From positions 1-37,863 of the forward strand of contig JACDZG010000070.1 in the NCBI GenBank assembly GCA_013426805.1: a stretch of DNA of 37,863 bases, read 5' to 3'. How positions within the stretch are numbered: position 1 is the stretch's first letter; every line of letters begins with the position of its first letter. Origin of the DNA: Chromatiaceae bacterium. Lineage in GTDB: Bacteria > Pseudomonadota > Gammaproteobacteria > Chromatiales > Chromatiaceae. The notes under the pieces were generated by a model. That model was given only the letters and a program-made list of their open reading frames with translations. It had not been told where the DNA came from and made no database searches. The translations under genes were made by a program, and so were the position numbers. Shown in pieces: positions 1 through 33,592 of this stretch.

Positions 1-86
1 CAGGTCACCGTGTTACCGTAGGGTCCGCTGTGCGGACCGTCCGCGGCCGGCCGGACCGACGATCAAGGCCAGACACAGGTTATATC

Positions 87-115
87 TTGTATCAGAAAAG
101 CACAACTTTTATATT
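87..115 (+). promoter_or_regulatory. Possible sigma-70 promoter upstream of urease genes
   Basis: An AT-rich patch stands out in otherwise GC-rich DNA. A weak -35 (TTGTAT, 87-92) and a good -10 (TATATT, 110-115) are separated by 17 bases. The -10 lies in the loop of a 6-bp inverted repeat (GCACAA 100-105 / TTGTGC 114-119) that could be an operator. The distance to ureA would give a leader of about 160 bases. This is pattern matching only. Confidence 0.3.
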
Positions 116-282
116 GTGCATCTCGGCCGACTGCGCCCCAGCACCGGTTTTTCCTCGCGCTTTGGCGCATACTTGGTGCCGGACTGCGCGGGCAAGGCGG
201 CTGGTTCGCCACGGAACGGGTCCACCCCTATCGCCCGTCTGCCCCGTCAACCCAAGTGCGCGATCCCGATCCGGAGGCGGCC

Positions 283-585
283 ATGGATCTCACCCCCAGA
301 GAGAAAGACAAGCTCCTGCTGTTCACCGCCGGCCTGGTCGCCGAGCGGCGTAAGGCACGGGGCGTCAAGCTCAATTATCCGGAGGCCGTGGCCTTCATCA
401 GTTGTGCCATCCTGGAGGGCGCCCGCGACGGCTGCTCGGTCGCCGAGTTGATGAACCATGGCCGGACCCTGCTCACGCGCGACGATGTGATGGACGGCAT
501 CCCGGAACTGATCCACGAGGTTCAGGTCGAGGCGACCTTCCCGGACGGCACCAAGTTGGTGACGGTGCATGACCCCATTGTTTGA
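283..585 (+). CDS. ureA: Urease subunit gamma (UreA)
   Basis: Smallest structural subunit of urease, the cytoplasmic nickel enzyme that hydrolyses urea to ammonia and carbamate. The 100-residue product is the normal family length and opens [14 protein letters not shown], the conserved UreA start. Further family blocks are [21 protein letters not shown] and the C-terminal [18 protein letters not shown]. An upstream in-frame ATG (256) would add nine residues, but the one at 283 has a GGAGG ribosome site (272-276) at good spacing and matches the family N-terminus. It is the first gene of a urease cluster, with ureB 49 bases downstream. No ureD lies in the 282 bases upstream, so that accessory gene must be elsewhere or outside the window. 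Confidence 0.97.
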
Positions 586-634
586 TCCGGCGCTTGAGAG
601 ACCGGAATCAACAAGTTTTCAGGAGTCCAGACCC

Positions 635-961
635 ATGATCCCAGGCGAACTGCTCCCCGCCGCCGGCACCATCGAGCTCAATGCCGGACGTCCGGTCCTG
701 ACCGTGGAGGTCGCCAATACCGGCGACCGGCCGATCCAGGTCGGCTCCCACTACCATTTTTTTGAGACCAATGCCGCGCTGCGCTTCGACCGCGCGCCGA
801 CCCGCGGCTGGCGACTGGATATCCCGGCCGGCACCGCGGTGCGTTTCGAGCCGGGCCAGAGCCGCACCGTCACGCTGGTGCCCTACGCCGGCAGCCGGCA
901 GGTCTTTGGTTTCAATGCCCGCGTGATGGGCGCACTGGCACCGGAGGGCGTCACGCCATGA
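635..961 (+). CDS. ureB: Urease subunit beta (UreB)
   Basis: Second structural subunit of the UreABC trimer. The 108-residue product starts [11 protein letters not shown] and carries the UreB core: [19 protein letters not shown], a [15 protein letters not shown] segment and [14 protein letters not shown]. The ATG at 635 is preceded by AGGAG (621-625). An upstream in-frame ATG at 569 would overlap ureA and add unrelated residues, so it is rejected. The stop codon overlaps the ureC start (ATGA at 958-961), indicating translational coupling. Confidence 0.97.
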
Positions 962-2661
962 GCCGCATCGATCGTGCCGCCTATGCCTCACTCTACGGAC
1001 CCACCGTCGGCGACCGGGTGCGCCTGGGTGACTCGGAATTGATCATCCAGGTCGAAGCGGATCGGACTCACTATGGGGATGAGGTCAGCTTCGGCGGCGG
1101 TAAGGTGATCCGCGATGGGATGGGCCAATGCCAGCGCCAGGCGGCCGAGGTGGCGGATCTGGTCATCACCAATGCGCTGATCCTTGATCACTGGGGGATC
1201 GTCAAGGCCGATATCGGCATCAAGAATGGGCGGATCGCTGGCATCGGCAAGGCCGGCAATCCGGATACTCAGGCGGGTGTCGACATCCTGATCGGCCCCG
1301 GCACCGAGATCATCGCGGGCGAGGGCCAGATCCTCACCGCCGGCGGCATCGATGCGCACATCCATTTCATCTGCCCGCAGCAGGTGGAGGAGGCGTTGAT
1401 GTCCGGGATCATGACTATGATCGGCGGCGGTACCGGGCCCGCGACCGGCACCAATGCCACCACCTGCACGCCGGGACCCTGGAATCTGCATCGCATGTTG
1501 CAGGCGGCCGAGGGGCTGCCGGTCAATCTGGGCTTTCTCGGCAAGGGCAACGGCAGCTTGCCGCTCCCGCTGGAAGAGCAGGTGCACGCCGGCGCCATGG
1601 GGCTCAAGCTCCATGAGGATTGGGGTACCACGCCGGCCGCCATCGACTGCTGTCTTGGGGTGGCCGAGCGCTACGATATCCAGGTCGCTATCCATACCGA
1701 TACCCTGAACGAGAGCGGCTTTGTCGAGGACACCATTGCCGCCTTCCAGGACCGCACCATCCACACCTATCACACCGAGGGCGCGGGCGGCGGCCATGCC
1801 CCGGATATCATCAAGGCCGCCGGCCTGCCCAATGTGTTGCCGTCATCGACCAACCCGACCCGGCCCTATACGGTCAATACGGTGGATGAGCACCTGGACA
1901 TGCTGATGGTGTGCCATCATCTGTCGCCGTCCATTCCGGAGGACGTGGCCTTTGCCGAGTCGCGGATTCGCCGGGAGACCATTGCCGCGGAGGATATCCT
2001 CCACGATCTGGGTGCCTTCAGCATGATCTCATCGGACAGCCAGGCGATGGGCCGGGTGGGGGAGGTCATCACCCGCACCTGGCAGACCGCTCACAAGATG
2101 AAGGTGCAGCGCGGTGCCCTGGCCGGCGACCCGGCGGAACATGACAATGTCCGCGTCAAGCGCTATGTCGCCAAATACACCATCAACCCGGCCATTGCCC
2201 ACGGCATCGCTCATGAGGTGGGGTCGGTCGCCGTCGGCAAGCTCGCCGATCTGGTGCTGTGGCGGCCGGCCTTCTTCGCCGCCAAGCCGAGTCTCATCAT
2301 CAAGGGCGGCCTGATCGTCGCGGCGCCCATGGGTGACCCCAACGCCTCCATTCCCACGCCGCAGCCGGTCCATTACCGGCCGATGTTCGGTGCCTTCGGC
2401 GGGGCCTTGGGGGCAACCTGTATGACCTTTCTCTCGCAAGCGGCCGGCGCGGCCGGGATCGGCCAGCAGCTTGGGTTGCAGCGCTTGATCGGTACGGTGC
2501 GGGGCACCCGCGGTCTGCGCAAGTCAGACATGGTCCACAACGACTGGCAGCCGTTGATCGAGGTCGACCCCCAGACCTATCAGGTCCGCGCGGATGGCCA
2601 GTTGCTCACCTGCGAGCCCGCCGCCGTGTTGCCTTTTGCCCAGCGCTATTTTCTGTTCTAA
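958..2661 (+). CDS. ureC: Urease subunit alpha, catalytic (UreC)
   Basis: Catalytic subunit holding the dinuclear nickel centre. It is 567 residues, full length. Residue numbers coincide with the well-studied Klebsiella enzyme: Lys217 in GLKLHEDWG is the carbamylated nickel bridge, His219 follows two residues on, Cys319-His320 sit in MVCHHLS (active-site flap and general acid), and Asp360 lies in [12 protein letters not shown]. The HIHFICPQQ block supplies the first two nickel histidines, and [15 protein letters not shown] another. All key residues are intact, so the enzyme should be functional given accessory proteins. The start overlaps ureB by four bases. Normally ureE or another accessory gene would follow; here the next 2.5 kb is foreign to urease. 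Confidence 0.98.
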
Positions 2662-2678
2662 CCGAGAGGGTGTTCGCC

Positions 2679-2819
2679 ATGTCCAAGACCTCATTCGAGT
2701 TTCCCCGCTCCAGCGTGGGACTGCGGTCTCGGCTTCTCCAGCGGCTGGAAGGCCCGCGCGGCAATGGCGGGTCGGGACCTGCCTTCACGCTGGAGCGTGG
2801 GAGCCAGAGCGCATCATGA
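2679..2819 (+). CDS. Possible small leader ORF, 46 residues, repeat-derived
   Basis: An ATG 17 bases after the ureC stop, preceded by a weak GAGAGGG, opens a 46-codon frame starting MSKTSFEFPRSSVG and ending GSQSAS. Its TGA (2817-2819) overlaps the ATG of the PtuA-like gene, so it could couple that gene's translation to ureC. The composition is low in hydrophobic residues and largely made of an inverted-repeat element (2706-2797), so it may simply be repeat DNA that happens to be open. No homology is recognised. Confidence 0.25.
   Translation: MSKTSFEFPRSSVGLRSRLLQRLEGPRGNGGSGPAFTLERGSQSAS
2706..2797. repeat. 12-bp perfect inverted repeat at left edge of defence insert
   Basis: CGCTCCAGCGTG (2706-2717) and its exact reverse complement CACGCTGGAGCG (2786-2797) are separated by 68 bases. 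The arms are followed by similar TGGGA/TGGGAG extensions. It lies between ureC and the PtuA-like gene, where operon genes normally abut, so it marks the left border of the inserted DNA. It resembles dispersed intergenic palindromic elements of sulfur-oxidising gammaproteobacteria, but that family link is from memory. Confidence 0.6.
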
Positions 2820-4213
2820 GAATCGAACGGCTGATTCTGGAAGCGGCCGGTTGCTTCGATGACCTGGATATTCAGTTCCAGCCCGGACGGGATCCCAAGA
2901 AGGCGGATATCCATTTGCTGGTGGGGCCAAATGGGAGTGGAAAGAGCACGATTCTCATGGCGATGGCGCAGGTGTTCTCCGGACTTTCGACCGGAATCGA
3001 TAAGCGGTTCTACAACCGTAGTGGGTACGCTTTGATTGAGTTTGCCGGAGGTCACATCGCGGCCGTTGCTCCGGTCGGGCGGGAGACACCACCACCCTAC
3101 ATATCGAATACCAGTGTGCCGCAAACGACATTGTTAAAGTCGCCGTATGATCATCCATACGGATCCGATACCGACTATTTAGCTTTCTACGAATATCCTG
3201 GAAAAAATGAAGATTCTATTTTTTCTAAGTATCGTATGCTAACCATGTATTATAAGCTGTTTGATACGAAGCATAAGGACACTCGTTTTTCTCATTTGGC
3301 CTTTGCCTATGGAGGCCAGCGATCCGTTGACACCTTCAGTCTAGATGGTATCATTGATCAGCAGGATACGCCTTTGGCTTCCGCATGTTTGAATCCCAAG
3401 CCGGATTTCAATAGTAAGGTGCCGCCGCTAATTCAATGGATTGCCAACACGTCCGCGAAGGCTGCATTTGCCAAGGATCAGTCAGATGAGTCCGGGCACG
3501 CCCGTTATCGCGGCGCAATCGTCAGAATCGAGCAGGTGATCAGTGAAATTACCAGCCGGAAATTTGCGTTCGTTCTTTCTTACGAGCCCATTAATGTCAA
3601 AGCCTCCATTGATGGCGAGCAATTGCCAATCGAGGTCCTTCCGGACGGGCTAAAATCATTGATCAGTTGGATTGGTGATCTGCTGATGCACATGGATCGA
3701 ATCCCTTGGATCGACGATACACCACTCCTGGATCGGCAAATCACGCTCTTTCTGGATGAGATCGAGGTCCATCTGCATCCCGCCTGGCAGCGCAAGATCC
3801 TGCCGGTCGTTCAAGACCTGTTTCCGAACGCTCAGGTCTTCGTCTCGACCCATTCTCCTTTCATCATCGCTTCCGCGGACGATGCCTGGATCTATCCGCT
3901 GTATCTGGACGAGCAAGGGCGGGGGCATGTTGGTGAAACCCTACCGAGCATGGTTGGTAATAGTTACGCGACCGTGCTGCGCGATGTACTCGGGATCGAG
4001 GCGGAGTTCGCTCCGCAAGTCGATGAGAAACTTAGGGTGTTCTATGCGCTTCGCGACAAAGCGTTACAGCGTGAGCCGGGGGCAATAGAGGAGTTGCAGG
4101 CAAAGGGACGCGAACTCGCGGGGTTTGGTGAAGAGGTGCTGGCGATCGTGCGCCCGGAGCTGCGACAGGTCGAGCGGCGTCTGGCGGGGGCAGTCGCGGA
4201 GACTGTCGGATGA
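2816..4213 (+). CDS. PtuA-like AAA/ABC-type ATPase of a Septu-like defence pair
   Basis: A 465-residue ATPase of the PtuA/OLD-like AAA_21 type. Visible motifs are Walker A GPNGSGKST (residues 37-45, Lys43), a signature-like LPDGLKSLI, Walker B LFLDEIEVHLHP with Asp314-Glu315, and the H-loop STHSPF with His346. Known PtuA proteins pair with the HNH nuclease PtuB to block phage, and the next gene is such a nuclease, overlapping by four bases (ATGA, 4210-4213). The start at 2816 (MRIERL) directly precedes the conserved ATPase fold; upstream in-frame codons translate repeat DNA. The central third (about 3130-3480) is visibly AT-richer than the urease genes around it, suggesting horizontal acquisition. 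An OLD-family or retron-associated ATPase is the main alternative, but there is no TOPRIM domain and no reverse transcriptase nearby. Confidence 0.82.
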   Translation: MRIERLILEAAGCFDDLDIQFQPGRDPKKADIHLLVGPNGSGKSTILMAMAQVFSGLSTGIDKRFYNRSGYALIEFAGGHIAAVAPVGRETPPPYISNTSVPQTTLLKSPYDHPYGSDTDYLAFYEYPGKNEDSIFSKYRMLTMYYKLFDTKHKDTRFSHLAFAYGGQRSVDTFSLDGIIDQQDTPLASACLNPKPDFNSKVPPLIQWIANTSAKAAFAKDQSDESGHARYRGAIVRIEQVISEITSRKFAFVLSYEPINVKASIDGEQLPIEVLPDGLKSLISWIGDLLMHMDRIPWIDDTPLLDRQITLFLDEIEVHLHPAWQRKILPVVQDLFPNAQVFVSTHSPFIIASADDAWIYPLYLDEQGRGHVGETLPSMVGNSYATVLRDVLGIEAEFAPQVDEKLRVFYALRDKALQREPGAIEELQAKGRELAGFGEEVLAIVRPELRQVERRLAGAVAETVG

Positions 4214-4839
4214 CTCCCTGTTGTCGGCCGGCCTGTCCCGACTGGTTAGCGGAACATTGGGAAGAGTGGGGTGCCGAGTTTGCACAGCGGCTCGCAGCGA
4301 ATGTCAGCTATTGTTTTTCGTGGAAGCAGTGGCATGGTCAGCGGGTCAACCAGCGGCTGCTGCCCCTGCTCAGTGCGATGACCGAGGGTCATTGCGCCTA
4401 TTGCGACTGGTTTCCCATGGACACGGGGACTGATCCGACCATTGATCACTTTAAACCCAAGGCGCGCTTCCCCCATCAGGTGTATTGCTGGGACAACCTG
4501 TATCTGTGCTGTCGTCACTGTCAGGAAAAGGCGGATGACGATTACACTGACCAGATTTTGCGCCCAGATGAGCCGAGCTTTCGATTTGCTGTGTTCTTCA
4601 TTTACAATTACAGCGACGGAACACTCTCGCCCAATCCTGATGCATCGGCGGTGAACCGAGAGCGTGCGCGATTGACGATCGAGATTCTCAAGCTGAACTC
4701 ACGGGGGCGACCAGCCGCGCGGAAAAGGGAGATCAATCGGTTCCGCGCTTTGGCGGCAGCCGAGCGGTCGACGTGGATTCCATTGTCACCGTTTCGATAC
4801 CTGTTATGGGATGAGATGCGTGAATCCCCATCCGTCTGA
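4210..4839 (+). CDS. PtuB-like HNH endonuclease of a Septu-like defence pair
   Basis: A 209-residue HNH-family nuclease. Two zinc-knuckle cysteine pairs frame the active site: Cys62-AY-Cys65 and Cys101-RH-Cys104. Between them lie TIDHFKPK (Asp79, His80) and WDNLYL (Asn95), giving the D/H-N-type HNH layout typical of PtuB and retron-associated HNH effectors. The gene overlaps the ATPase gene by four bases, as expected for a two-gene toxin-like unit whose nuclease is held or delivered by the ATPase. The N-terminal 60 residues are not recognised. It probably cleaves nucleic acid on phage infection; the target is unknown. All visible catalytic positions are present, so it looks intact. Confidence 0.82.
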   Translation: MTPCCRPACPDWLAEHWEEWGAEFAQRLAANVSYCFSWKQWHGQRVNQRLLPLLSAMTEGHCAYCDWFPMDTGTDPTIDHFKPKARFPHQVYCWDNLYLCCRHCQEKADDDYTDQILRPDEPSFRFAVFFIYNYSDGTLSPNPDASAVNRERARLTIEILKLNSRGRPAARKREINRFRALAAAERSTWIPLSPFRYLLWDEMRESPSV

Positions 4840-5152
4840 TCAGGCCAGAGTCAATCCGGCCCATCTCGAATCGTTGAAGGCGGCGTTGGAAGCTGAGGAC
4901 GCCGATCTGGTCTGCGCCTGGCTCTTCGGCAGCACAGCCCGCGGGGAGGCGCGCGCGGACAGTGATCTGGATGTCGGCGTCTTGTTCGAGACCGATCCGC
5001 CGCAGACGCTGGCCGGTCTGCACTTGGACTTGGCCGACGCTTTGACTGAAGCGGCCGAGCGTCCGGTGGACTTGGTGGTGCTCAACCGCGCTCCGGTCAA
5101 TCTGATCCATTTCGCGACCGTTTGGTTCCCTGATGATTCATTTCACCCGTAA
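4811..5152 (+). CDS. MntA-like minimal nucleotidyltransferase, C-terminus apparently shortened
   Basis: A 113-residue protein of the minimal nucleotidyltransferase (MNT) fold. It has LFGSTARGEARADSDLDVGV with Gly40-Ser41, Asp52 and Asp54, and a third acidic position Asp87 in PVDLVVLN. MntA-type enzymes neutralise HepT/HEPN toxins by AMPylation, but no HEPN gene lies on either side. The protein stops soon after the AP-NLIHFATV segment, where relatives usually continue for some 20-30 residues, and its last 20 bases overlap ureE. This suggests the insertion or deletion junction cut it. The ATG at 4811 overlaps the HNH gene by 29 bases; a GTG at 4820 is an alternative. It may be a third component of the defence module or a leftover antitoxin. 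Confidence 0.7.
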   Translation: MRCVNPHPSDQARVNPAHLESLKAALEAEDADLVCAWLFGSTARGEARADSDLDVGVLFETDPPQTLAGLHLDLADALTEAAERPVDLVVLNRAPVNLIHFATVWFPDDSFHP

Positions 5153-5588
5153 AATCGATCAATCGCCTGAAACGGCTCCCACCATCACCTTGACCCGCGA
5201 CCAACGACTGCGCAGCCGCTTGCGCGTAGTCCTCGACGATGGTCGGGAGGCAGGCATCCTGCTGCCGCGGGGGACGACGCTGCGCGACGGCGATGGCTTG
5301 GTGTCTGAGGATGGCCTGGTGGTGCGGGTACGTGCCGCCGCCGAGTGTCTGTCGCGGGTGGATTGCGCAGACCCGTTGGTCCTCGCCAGGGTCTGCTATC
5401 ACCTGGGCAATCGCCATGTGGCAGTGCAGATCGAGCCCGGACGGTTGTCCTATCTGCACGACCATGTCCTGGACGATCTGGTACGGGGACTGGGGTTGGC
5501 GGTTGTGGTGGACCATGGCCCCTTCGAGCCGGAAGCCGGTGCCTATGGCGGCCAGGGTCATGGGCAGGCTCACGCGCATGATCACTGA
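5133..5588 (+). CDS. ureE: Urease accessory protein UreE (nickel metallochaperone)
   Basis: UreE delivers nickel to the UreG/UreF/UreD complex during urease activation. The 151-residue product has the N-terminal beta domain (LTRDQRLRSRLRVVLDDGRE, then GILLPRGTTLRDGD), the metal-binding domain motif ARVCYHLGNRHV and YLHDHVLDDLVRGLGL, and a histidine-rich tail [10 protein letters not shown] for nickel storage. The start MIHFTRK fits the family, although it has no clear ribosome site and lies inside the end of the MntA-like gene, so translation may depend on coupling. It overlaps ureF by 11 bases. Confidence 0.95.
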   Translation: MIHFTRKIDQSPETAPTITLTRDQRLRSRLRVVLDDGREAGILLPRGTTLRDGDGLVSEDGLVVRVRAAAECLSRVDCADPLVLARVCYHLGNRHVAVQIEPGRLSYLHDHVLDDLVRGLGLAVVVDHGPFEPEAGAYGGQGHGQAHAHDH

Positions 5589-6252
5589 CCTGCCGCTGCT
5601 GCGGCTCGTTCAATTGGTGAGTCCGTCCCTGCCGATCGGTGGCTTCACCTATTCCCAGGGGATCGAATGGGCGGTGGAGGCGGGCTGGCTGAAGACCGCG
5701 GCGGACCTGGATGCCTGGCTCGCCGATCAGCTTCAGTCGAGTCTGGCGCGGGTGGACCTGCCCCTGCTGGTGCGGATGCGGACGGCGGCCGCGGCGCGGG
5801 ACCCGCGGGCCATGGGCAGTCTCATCGACCGCCTGATCGCCGCCCGTGAGACCATGGAACTGCGTCTGGAGGAGAGCAACCGCGGCCGGGCGTTGGCCGA
5901 TCTGCTGCTTGCCTGGGAGCTGGCCGGGGCACGGGAGTGGCGGCCGGTGCTGGCGCGCAGTCAGGCGGCCGGCATCGCCTTTGCCGCGGCGGCCTGGGGC
6001 ATCGCGCCGCGGTGTGCCGCTGCCGGCTACGCTTGGGCGTGGCTGGAGGGTCTGGTGTTGACGGCGGTCAAGTGTGTGCCGCTGGGTCAGACGCAGGGTC
6101 AGCAGGTTCTGGTCCGTTTGGCGGGCCTGATTCCGGGCGTTCTGGATCAGGCGCAGGCGTGCGCGGATGACGCCGTTGGCGCGTCCTGTCCGGCACTGGC
6201 CATTGCCAGCAGTGCGCATGAAACGCAATATACACGGTTGTTCCGGTCCTGA
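5578..6252 (+). CDS. ureF: Urease accessory protein UreF
   Basis: UreF joins UreD and UreG in the complex that loads nickel into the urease apoenzyme and controls UreG GTPase activity. The 224-residue helical protein begins [20 protein letters not shown] and has the family hallmark [20 protein letters not shown], with a conserved C-terminal block near [12 protein letters not shown]. The ATG at 5578 lies 11 bases inside ureE. The open frame extends much farther upstream but only as a shadow of ureE. ureG follows after seven bases. Confidence 0.95.
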
Positions 6253-6259
6253 GGTGCAA

Positions 6260-6922
6260 ATGGCTGAGTCTTCCCCCCTGCGTGTCGGTGTCGGCGGCCC
6301 CGTCGGTTCCGGCAAGACGGCGCTGCTCGATGCGCTGTGCAAAGGCCTGCGGAATCATTACGAGATCGCGGTGGTGACCAATGATATCTATACCCGCGAG
6401 GATGCCGAGTTCCTGATCCGCTCCCAGGCGCTGCCCGCGGAGCGGATCATCGGCGTGGAAACCGGCGGCTGTCCGCACACCGCCATTCGCGAAGACGCGA
6501 GCATGAACCTGGCGGCGGTAGAGGACTTGCAAGCCCGGTTTCCGCAGCTTGACGTGATCTTCATCGAGAGCGGCGGCGACAATCTGGCCGCGACCTTCAG
6601 TCCGGAGTTGGCGGACCTCACGCTCTATGTCATCGACGTGGCCGAAGGGGAGAAGATCCCGCGCAAGGGCGGGCCGGGGATCACCCGTTCGGATTTGCTG
6701 GTGATCAACAAGATCGACCTGGCGCCCTATGTGGGCGCGTCGCTGGAGGTCATGGAACGTGATACCCGGCGGATGCGCGGCGATCGGCCGTTCGTCTTCA
6801 CCAACCTGCGGGTGGGGGCGGGCGTGCCGACGATCGTCGCGTTCCTCTGCCGCGCGGGGATGTTGCCGGCCCGCCGGGAGTCCAAGGCTTCAGCCTTGGC
6901 GCCCCCTTCCGGCCAACGCTGA
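6260..6922 (+). CDS. ureG: Urease accessory GTPase UreG
   Basis: SIMIBI-class GTPase that powers nickel insertion. The 220-residue protein has the P-loop GGPVGSGKT (Lys19), the nickel-binding Cys71-Pro-His73, ESGGDN in the switch region, and the base-specificity motif NKIDL. UreG normally ends soon after a [12 protein letters not shown]-type helix (about residue 202). Here some 18 further residues ([18 protein letters not shown]) are encoded by an inverted repeat that has replaced or extended the end. The catalytic core is complete. The start MAESSPL is chosen because upstream codons lie within ureF. Confidence 0.96.
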
Positions 6923-6935
6923 GTCGCGGACTCCC
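6876..6935. repeat. Nested palindrome forming the 3' end of ureG
   Basis: Outer arms GGGAGTCC (6876-6883) and GGACTCCC (6928-6935) are exact reverse complements. Nested at the left arm is the hairpin CCAAGGCTTCAGCCTTGG (6882-6899), a perfect 8-bp stem. The element supplies the last codons of ureG and could also act as a transcription attenuator or mRNA-stabilising structure. No U-run follows. Confidence 0.65.
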
Positions 6936-6999
6936 TGGGCGAGAGATGACCTGCGCACCTGATATAGCGTTCGCACTTGATATCCAGACAGACCTTCGT

Positions 7000-7028
7000 G
7001 TAGGGGCGGGTTTGAAACCCGCCCCTAC
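7000..7028. repeat. Perfect 14-bp-stem REP-like hairpin
   Basis: GTAGGGGCGGGTTT (7000-7013) and AAACCCGCCCCTAC (7015-7028) pair perfectly around a single G. The form matches dispersed extragenic palindromes (REP type). It lies between the convergent genes ureG and the DUF2939 gene, so bidirectional termination is possible, but there is no T-tract. It shares the TAGGGGCG edge with hairpins at 36445-36536. Confidence 0.7.
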
Positions 7029-7085
7029 GTCCGGTTATCACGTTCGACAGCTATATCCGGACGGTCGGCAGGCGGTCAGCGAGAC

Positions 7086-7568
7086 TCACCGGATGATGTC
7101 GGTGATCTTCCAGTCGAAGCCTTCCAGTGTCAGGCGCACATTGGTTGCGCCCTGACCCAACTCGCCGATGCGGATCAGAAAGCGGTTGTAGGATTCGAAG
7201 AATGCGAAGTCGATTCCGCCCAGCAGGTAGGGCGGCGTCTGATTGGTCGCGGCGGTGACCGCCTTGCGCAAGGTTTCCTGGACCCAGGGCAGGGTGATGG
7301 CCTGGTCGAGTGCCGAGTCACCCAGCCGCTCCAGGTTCTGGCGGATCCAGGCCATGGCCGTGTTGGCGTCGCCGCTGGGCAGCAGTTGGTCCGCGCCCGC
7401 GCCGATGCGTGCCTTGTAATTGGCGCGGATGGCCGGCAAATCCACCAGCGCGGCCAGTTCGGTGGTATCTTCCCGACTTAAGGCGCTGTCCAGTTTGAAA
7501 ACAGTGTAGTAGGGCCAAACGCCGAAGGCGATCAGGGCAAACAGGAGCAGATAGCCGATGTACCGCAT
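7086..7568 (-). CDS. DUF2939 family membrane-anchored protein
   Basis: A 160-residue protein with one N-terminal membrane segment (residues 5-25, YLLLFALIAFGVWPYYTVFK). A soluble domain of DUF2939 type follows: LDSALSREDTTELAALVDLPAIR, a TLPWVQETLRKAV region, and a C-terminal strand-rich part ending LEGFDWKITDII. The function of the family is unknown. The domain probably sits in the periplasm, anchored to the inner membrane. It is divergent from the DUF4126 gene (150 bases apart) and convergent with the urease operon. The name is from remembered family features and is moderately secure. Confidence 0.75.
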   Translation of the reverse strand: MRYIGYLLLFALIAFGVWPYYTVFKLDSALSREDTTELAALVDLPAIRANYKARIGAGADQLLPSGDANTAMAWIRQNLERLGDSALDQAITLPWVQETLRKAVTAATNQTPPYLLGGIDFAFFESYNRFLIRIGELGQGATNVRLTLEGFDWKITDIIR

Positions 7569-29138: not shown

Positions 29139-29169
29139 GCATGTCGGTGCGACTTCAGTCGCACCGACA
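29139..29169. repeat. REP hairpin, right-pointing copy flanking the RAYT
   Basis: TGTCGGTGCGAC (29142-29153), loop TTCA, and GTCGCACCGACA (29158-29169) form a perfect 12-bp stem. The head GCATGTCGGTGCGA (29139-29152) is repeated exactly but inverted at 29680-29693 on the other side of the transposase gene. The 3' flank (CTGACCGGTATCCA and onward) is nearly identical to that of the copy at 33224-33253. Confidence 0.8.
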
Positions 29170-33039: not shown

Positions 33040-33592
33040 GGCGTTGTGTGTAATCTGGTTGCCGTCGGCACCGGCGGGCACCGCCGATAGCCCGCTAATT
33101 TATGGGCCAGAGGGCGGGAAAAACAGGGATGTCCGGATCGATCGACGCTGCGGCGCCCCGCGCGCGCGCGTGATCGCGCCGGACGCCCGGCCGGTCAAGC
33201 CATCCCTAACCGGGCCGGGTGTCGTGTAGGTGCGACTTCAGTCGCACCTACACTGACCGGTATCCACATTGTCGGAAATCGCTTAGGTCTCGCAGGTTCA
33301 TCTCGGTGTCCGCTGGGGTGAACCGACAAGACGCAGTTTTCGCACCAAGTCACAAAGATCAAATATCAGAGATCGTGGATCAAAGATCAATGATTAATAA
33401 ACTGCTGTGATTCTTATAAGCCTTCGTCAACCCTGTGCATCGACCGCGCGTTTCGAATCCGCGCGCGCCGGCCCTTGTGCAGTGCAGCAACCGGACCCAT
33501 AATCATCCGAAGTTGACGAGTCGAAGACGCCGACTTAACTGCTTTCCTGATTTCAAACGACCCAACCAGCTTCTTCACCCGCGGACCGACCC
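33040..33592. other. Intergenic region between divergent ovoA and cysD
   Basis: About 550 bases without a supported gene. It holds a REP hairpin (33224-33253) with its conserved tail to about 33288, then an AT-rich stretch (33350-33420) with repeated GATCA words and a TATAAG (33415-33420) that could be a -10 for cysD; no good -35 is seen. The last 90 bases before cysD show no structure. Promoters for both operons are expected here. Confidence 0.5.
33224..33253. repeat. Distant REP hairpin copy with compensated stem change
   Basis: GTGTAGGTGCGAC (33224-33236), loop TTCA, and GTCGCACCTACAC (33241-33253) form a perfect 13-bp stem. Compared with the copy at 29142-29169, one stem pair has changed from C-G to A-T on both arms, keeping the pairing. 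The following about 35 bases (CTGACCGGTATCCACATT and on) match the other copy with few differences. Confidence 0.78.

Follow-up and report, generated by a model that had tools for sequence, protein, structure and literature searches.

A Septu-type gene pair between ureC and ureE points to a recurrent cargo slot in the urease operon of Chromatiaceae

Introduction

Defence genes are usually found in clusters, either in islands or between core genes. We describe a pair of Septu genes, ptuA and ptuB, that lie inside the urease operon of a Chromatiaceae bacterium (assembly GCA_013426805.1, contig JACDZG010000070.1), on a stretch of 37,863 nucleotides that we call the window (contig C18 of genome G000, 7.6 Mb). 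Septu systems combine an ATPase, PtuA, with an HNH protein, PtuB, which is restrained by PtuA-bound ATP.

A published Septu system is described as losing immunity on mutation of PtuA K43 or D316 (PMC13096335), and in other members defence was abolished by mutating Walker residues of PtuA or the H-N-H residues of PtuB (PMC13096335, PMC11555353). One Septu and one retron are described as cutting tRNA-Tyr, and another Septu is reported to act on nicked DNA (PMC13096335, PMC11555353). Core-gene defence hotspots are known from Pseudomonas aeruginosa, where, as described in PMC10250203, differing defence genes share one conserved junction in related genomes. The site reported here is alike in that respect and differs from those described in that the junction lies inside a single metabolic operon.

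We propose that the Septu pair probably entered a recurrent cargo slot of the Chromatiaceae urease operon, flanked by ureC and, as an older resident, by the type VII toxin-antitoxin (TA) pair mntA-hepT. The evidence, taken from the sequences themselves, comprises the identity, order, strand and overlaps of the genes, the empty or variously filled sites of relatives, and the decay of hepT.

Results

A Septu pair within the urease genes

The genes run ureA-ureB-ureC-ptuA-ptuB-truncated mntA-ureE-ureF-ureG, all on the forward strand (Table 1). Positions 2816-4839 encode a Septu-type PtuA/PtuB pair, as judged from the best-matching PADLOC models, PDLC00281 and PDLC00351, and from catalytic motifs. 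At E=9.7e-120 and E=3.4e-57, respectively, these matches are not due to chance. PtuA has the Walker A motif GPNGSGKST at residues 37-45, Walker B at D314-E315, and H346, and so carries K43 and D314 (compare K43 and D316 of the published Septu); for PtuB, all three aligned sequences share H80, N96, C62 and C65. The top-scoring solved chains by sequence were PtuA-named for PtuA (some of them retron-derived, and among them 8ee4, which we take to be a Septu PtuA) and TIGR02646/PtuB proteins for PtuB. The pair itself is thus an ordinary one of a known family, sharing gene pair, gene order, ATPase motifs and HNH motif with Septu and departing from it in its position inside a urease operon, its adjoining truncated mntA and a divergent stretch of PtuA. 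In this stretch (alignment columns 76-175, ~100 columns) three relatives share just 10-32% identity while both ends are conserved, as would be expected of a part sensing or binding something changeable.

The original prediction, made from the letters of the window, had placed such a pair, with the same PtuA residues, on one strand between ureC (ending at 2661) and ureE (starting at 5133), and had considered ureABC and ureEFG intact. We confirm this: both ptu frames are open, and Pfam matches cover ureA, B, C, E, F and G almost end to end. The four-base overlaps that it described hold for ptuA/ptuB; ptuA does not touch ureC, from which a spacer of 154 bases separates it, and a third open reading frame (ORF), mntA at 4811-5152, which the prediction did not contain, shares 29 bases with ptuB and 20 with ureE. 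The resulting chain of ORFs overlaps throughout from ptuA to ureF (ureE-ureF from coordinates).

The residues required in other members are present in the window proteins, and therefore nuclease-type defence is the best reading of this PtuAB pair. On infection, the HNH site of PtuB would cut nucleic acid inside a PtuA-PtuB oligomer, as other members suggest; candidate targets by analogy are tRNA-Tyr, as in some members, or nicked DNA, as in another. A second Septu-like PtuAB pair is present in the same genome (L058, G000:C178:50195-52073, reverse strand), with PtuA about 37-40% identical.

The effectors of Retron I-A (Ec78/Eco7) are homologous to the window PtuAB, which scores over the TIGR02646 cut-off and under those of NF041760 and NF041761. 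Membership in Retron I-A, which calls for a reverse transcriptase and an msr-msd RNA next to PtuAB, was rejected: the ten gene products encoded in 283-7568 include no reverse transcriptase, the neighbours of PtuAB there being urease genes, mntA and DUF2939, and the sole gathering-score Rfam match in the window lies antisense in ureC. That match (RF02514, 5' ureB sRNA; 1109-1391, minus strand, 111.6 bits) may reflect the conserved ureC coding sequence alone.

The ureC-ureE junction in relatives

Among 210 genomes of the family, 92 had ureC and 83 had ureE. We examined 77 urease clusters, one per genome, from 26 genera, leaving out 15 genomes with partial or distant ureC; the junction counts are not corrected for relatedness. 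Where both genes lay in the fetched stretch, the ureC-ureE gap exceeded 500 bases in 17 of 59 clusters (7 of 24 genera), with G028 (20 kb) as an additional case; at the other four junctions such gaps numbered 2/72, 3/76, 1/58 and 3/54. The 17 long gaps hold mntA in 11 cases (2 with PtuAB), an ORF of G137 in one and a homologous reverse-strand ORF in five. For 18 clusters the fetched stretch did not contain ureE; 10 of these clusters belong to genus g24.

PtuAB was found in two of the 77 clusters, those of the window and of Thiohalocapsa sp. ML1 (L060), a member of another genus. In ML1 the order is again ureC-ptuA-ptuB-mntA-ureE, with no hepT, and ptuA, ptuB, mntA and ureE overlap consecutively by 1, 1 and 4 bases; identities between window and ML1 are 55.9% for PtuA, 66.5% for PtuB, 67% for MntA, 62% for ureF and 70% for ureE. 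An assembly chimera is unlikely because an independent assembly from another genus shows the identical gene order. The same genome excludes a unique placement of Septu. The placement, which the original prediction had called unusual, is no isolated event and belongs to a cargo slot that recurs, and the possibility it had raised, that all relatives carry these genes here, does not hold. The closest sister genomes, G002 and G006 (ureC 98% and 97% identical), have no PtuAB at the site and hold Uma2, mntA and hepT (G006) or Uma2, mntA and an internally deleted hepT (G002). In G001 and G004, of the same genus, the site is empty, with ureC and ureE 4-6 bases apart, stop codon included.

Other relatives carry different cargo. 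In G028 (L082, 906-14215), which belongs to another genus, the ureC-ureE interval holds matches to the mad2-mad7 models of MADS; the insert also has an extra ORF of 655 aa with weak resemblance to a pAgo-system model. Its genus mate G137 has a lone long ORF at the junction, with weak PADLOC matches as for the G028-insert ORF. After ureC, G005 carries PDC-M21A/B on the same strand (L043, 3961-5366) and G007 NsnA/B/C on the opposite strand (L044, 6602-9891), with ureEFG elsewhere in both; these two genomes are of the window's own genus. Thus mntA-hepT, Septu, Uma2 (in two sisters), MADS and PDC-M21 are all on the operon strand, and Nsn is opposite. At a different junction, between ureB and ureC of G097, a BrnT-like ORF (L109, 1798-2100) scored under the Pfam cut-off (25.3 vs 34.5 bits).

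Several unrelated defence or TA types, Septu, MADS, mntA-hepT and Uma2, therefore occur between ureC and ureE, and by gene content the slot has what defines a defence hotspot, multiple unrelated systems at a fixed junction in related genomes. Cargo may arrive through recombination between common flanks, with ureC at one end and mntA/ureE at the opposite end. Cargo that has the orientation of the operon would be tolerated because transcription can carry on into ureEFG.

Across the class, ureC was present in 82 of 369 genomes, of which 78 were searched for ureE (left out were G000 and G015, same family, and G247 and G405, partial ureC). A ureE match was obtained in 76 of these, and in 67 ureC and ureE shared a contig and a strand and lay no more than 10 kb apart. 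The gap exceeded 500 bases in 7 of these 67 genomes outside the family; none of the seven gaps had a MntA, HepT or PtuAB match, and one had a weak Uma2 match (L150).

The resident mntA-hepT pair

In four genera of the family, the mntA-hepT pair, in our reading the older resident, lies directly 5' of ureE. In 22 genomes chosen from these genera, a G006-type MntA query (E up to 1e-12) gave a single match per genome in 14, and in 13 of the 14 mntA lies immediately 5' of ureE, including G005 and G007, whose ureABC are elsewhere; in G086, hepT and ureE are ~0.7 kb apart. The exception is G004, in which a hldE-like gene (named by eye), mntA and hepT are on a contig other than that of ureC-ureE. In G006, the two genes are adjacent on one strand and score over their cut-offs of 60 bits (MntA, NF047752, 94.6 bits; HepT, NF047751, 116.3 bits). 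MntA distances track those of ureC (r=0.917, 55 pairs), and dN/dS of 0.08-0.21 among five genomes of the Thiohalocapsa genus looks like purifying selection on MntA.

The toxin gene is less constant. It is open and full-length in 9 of the 14 genomes (G004, G006, G007, G086, G107, G130, G134, G199 and G201) and deleted, shortened or unmatched in five (G000, G002, G005, G194 and G197), and G093 and G195 have hepT scars without a mntA match. No intact hepT without mntA was seen among the examined loci, as expected of a toxin.

Some further features were noted around these genes. The mntA gene lies 3' of a hldE-like gene in G004, G005 and G007 (L174, L175 and L176; names by eye), and G005 and G007 have a flavodoxin-like gene, also named by eye, between ureF and ureG. 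A GTTGTC-type short tandem repeat lies just 5' of mntA in G006 (L040, 3398-3473), and short repeats are present in the ureC-ptuA spacer of L060 too.

Decay of the resident in the window

Unlike the pair of G006, the window resident has decayed, with its antitoxin truncated and its toxin lost. The mntA ORF is 88-90% identical to G006 MntA across ~87 residues and still exceeds the NF047752 cut-off, with just positions 3-71 of the 106 in the profile covered. Relative to G002 and G006, a deletion took the 3' part of mntA and nearly the whole of hepT, joining mntA to a hepT scar, across which the mntA frame runs into the start of ureE. HepT gave no tblastn match in the window, alignment revealing a short 3' scar only. 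On the other side of the pair, the ureC-ptuA spacer retains only the leader of the sisters' Uma2 gene.

This decay bears on two alternatives. PtuAB could be a silent passenger heading for loss, as has happened to hepT. The adjoining mntA is truncated, the MntA branch of the window is ~3x longer than those of the sisters (0.087 vs 0.029 and 0.031), and MntA dN/dS is 0.18-0.27 for pairs with the window vs 0.13 between the sisters (few sites); we nevertheless consider decay of PtuAB unlikely, since both ptu frames are fully open and the tested motifs intact. In the second alternative, MntA was co-opted by Septu after the loss of HepT, its nucleotidyltransferase activity silencing PtuAB or the PtuAB target, so that ptuA-ptuB-mntA would form a three-gene system tied to urease. 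Both PtuAB carriers have mntA without hepT, and the ML1 genes overlap as given above; hepT is open and complete in none of the two PtuAB carriers vs 9 of the 12 other mntA genomes (one-sided p ~0.11, by hand). With mntA truncated in the window, we regard co-option as decidedly improbable. A role of MntA as a general partner of Septu found no support, as the two further PtuAB pairs that we examined, L058 and L059, have no mntA match beside them.

History of ptuAB

With the window PtuA as query, 72,556 plasmid records yielded nothing at E 1e-40; in phages, 3 of 50,697 records matched at E 1e-10, with 23-34% identity and none covering 80% of the query; and of 131 pattern-matching stretches in viral contigs none encoded a relative. 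At E 1e-30, the window's own genome was the one match among 96 sampled family genomes, and at E 1e-60 two of 369 class genomes matched, the second (G283) with 37% identity over part of the protein. A further copy, 65.9% identical to the window PtuA, comes from a metagenome-assembled genome (MAG), where its 10-kb contig has no urease gene. Because the MAG copy is closer than the ML1 copy (55.9%), the history of PtuA is not simply that of its host.

If related Septu pairs had been inserted next to mntA twice independently, once in each genus, this could account for the similarity pattern, for the low GC of the window ptuA and for the absence of the pair from sister genomes. Double insertion would require the identical junction, order and orientation on both occasions, and no mobile element was noticed at the borders, where no search aimed at target duplications was made; we hold this course to be a serious possibility, if short of probable. 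A single ancient entry, with PtuAB a vertical slot component that predates the split of the window genus from Thiohalocapsa and was lost in most descendants, strikes us as rather doubtful. It would explain why both carriers are alike in order, strand and mntA neighbour, and it fits the PtuB identity between them, which is near that of ureF and ureE, and the tracking of the urease tree by MntA. It is at odds with the presence of PtuAB in so few clusters, with Uma2 in its place in the closest sisters, and with the nearer MAG copy of PtuA.

Expression and control

We found no forward-strand terminator-like site in 1-7100, and together with the overlapping genes this makes read-through from ureABC, and with it co-expression of ptuAB with urease, plausible; expression of PtuAB would most likely come at least partly from this source. 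The nitrogen or urea control proposed in the original prediction found no support: scanning the window for the sigma-54 consensus, with up to 3 mismatches allowed, yielded 117 matches vs 150 expected by chance, and nitrogen (sigma-54) control was dropped as a candidate. A promoter scan gave 3 sites vs 1.8 expected, which is no basis for a claim.

The operon-internal position and the genes overlapping down to ureE might also suggest that PtuAB is now a urease-related factor rather than a defence system. We think this extremely improbable, given that PtuAB was not found in 75 of the 77 urease clusters, the closest relatives with complete urease genes included, and that the catalytic residues of Septu are retained.

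Locus layout

The features of the locus are collected in Table 1. GC content falls to 46% in ptuA vs 63-72% over most urease genes. The predicted fold of 2655-2815, which spans the spacer repeat, has -75.6 kcal/mol (z -2.04). Farther away, the 16-base inverted-repeat-like sequence TGCGACTTCAGTCGCA occurs twice in the window, at 29148-29163 and 33231-33246.

Table 1. Features of the urease locus and its Septu cargo (window coordinates)
Feature	Position	Strand	Evidence
ureA (urease gamma)	283..585	+	PF00547 E=2.1e-47
ureB (urease beta)	569..961	+	PF00699 E=1.9e-44
ureC (urease alpha), 3' end = left border of cargo slot	958..2661	+	TIGR01792 970.6 bits, cut-off 680
Leader 3' of ureC stop, up to ATGTCC	2662..2684	+	alignable with uma2 leader of sisters G002 and G006; clear similarity stops beyond
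Dispersed palindromic repeat, ~110 bases, in ureC-ptuA spacer	about 2699..2809	+	38 matches in own genome, query place counted
ptuA, Septu ATPase, 465 aa	2816..4213	+	PDLC00281 (PADLOC PtuA1) E=9.7e-120
ptuB, Septu HNH protein, 209 aa	4210..4839	+	PDLC00351 (PADLOC PtuB1) E=3.4e-57; TIGR02646 58.3 bits, cut-off 52.15
Truncated mntA (type VII antitoxin adenylyltransferase)	4811..5152	+	NF047752 64.4 bits, cut-off 60, profile 3-71 of 106
hepT 3'-end scar, borders approximate	5108..5133	+	alignment with G002 and G006
ureE (urease accessory), right border of slot	5133..5588	+	NF009751 190.6 bits, cut-off 144
ureF	5578..6252	+	PF01730 E=1.2e-31
ureG	6260..6922	+	TIGR00101 352.8 bits, cut-off 204.2

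Discussion

Several observations weigh against parts of the interpretation given here. As to the identity of the pair, the NCBIfam equivalog models for PtuA and PtuB (retron Ec78; NF041760 and NF041761) scored under their cut-offs (119.3 vs 500 and 67 vs 150), the Pfam HNH match of PtuB was slightly under its own (19.9 vs 21.4), and AlphaFold single-protein models from three-sequence alignments were too poor for use (mean confidence, pLDDT, 45.4 for PtuB and 41.6 for PtuA). As to the slot, it is not defence-only, because five of the 17 long gaps (L074-L078; g23 and g70) hold one homologous reverse-strand ORF of ~200 aa without a known family. In genus g24, 8 of 10 clusters have an argS-like gene after ureC, the mad2-like gene of G028 scores best with a type II methyltransferase model, and in G007 the Nsn genes are encoded on the strand opposite to ureC and face it. 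The defence genes of G005 and G007 are neighbours of ureC and not ureC-ureE inserts, because ureE is elsewhere, and the cases are not independent, because the genera are related. HepT and ureE distances correlate weakly (r=0.48, 36 pairs, broken copies included), and the spacer palindrome at 2699-2809 could damp read-through into ptuA. The L075 copy of the reverse-strand ORF has a CVYCGYGNQ motif and, when tested, had no Pfam match.

Weighing these points, we still regard entry of the Septu pair into a recurrent cargo slot, next to an older mntA-hepT resident, as the probable explanation of the locus. We found no description of a urease-operon cargo slot with a resident mntA-hepT in the literature searched (titles and abstract openings, covering few subscription papers), and the same search returned no paper on Septu together with urease.

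Defence or TA cargo recurs at a single site inside a metabolic operon, with intact genes on either side, and a TA pair lies beside ureE in four genera. This suggests that a metabolic operon can offer a site at which immunity genes are swapped in. It raises the questions of whether a nutrient operon can lend its promoter to immunity genes and whether the resident TA pair marks or stabilises the cargo site, and it makes the ureC-ureE junction worth searching for unknown defence genes of purple sulfur bacteria.

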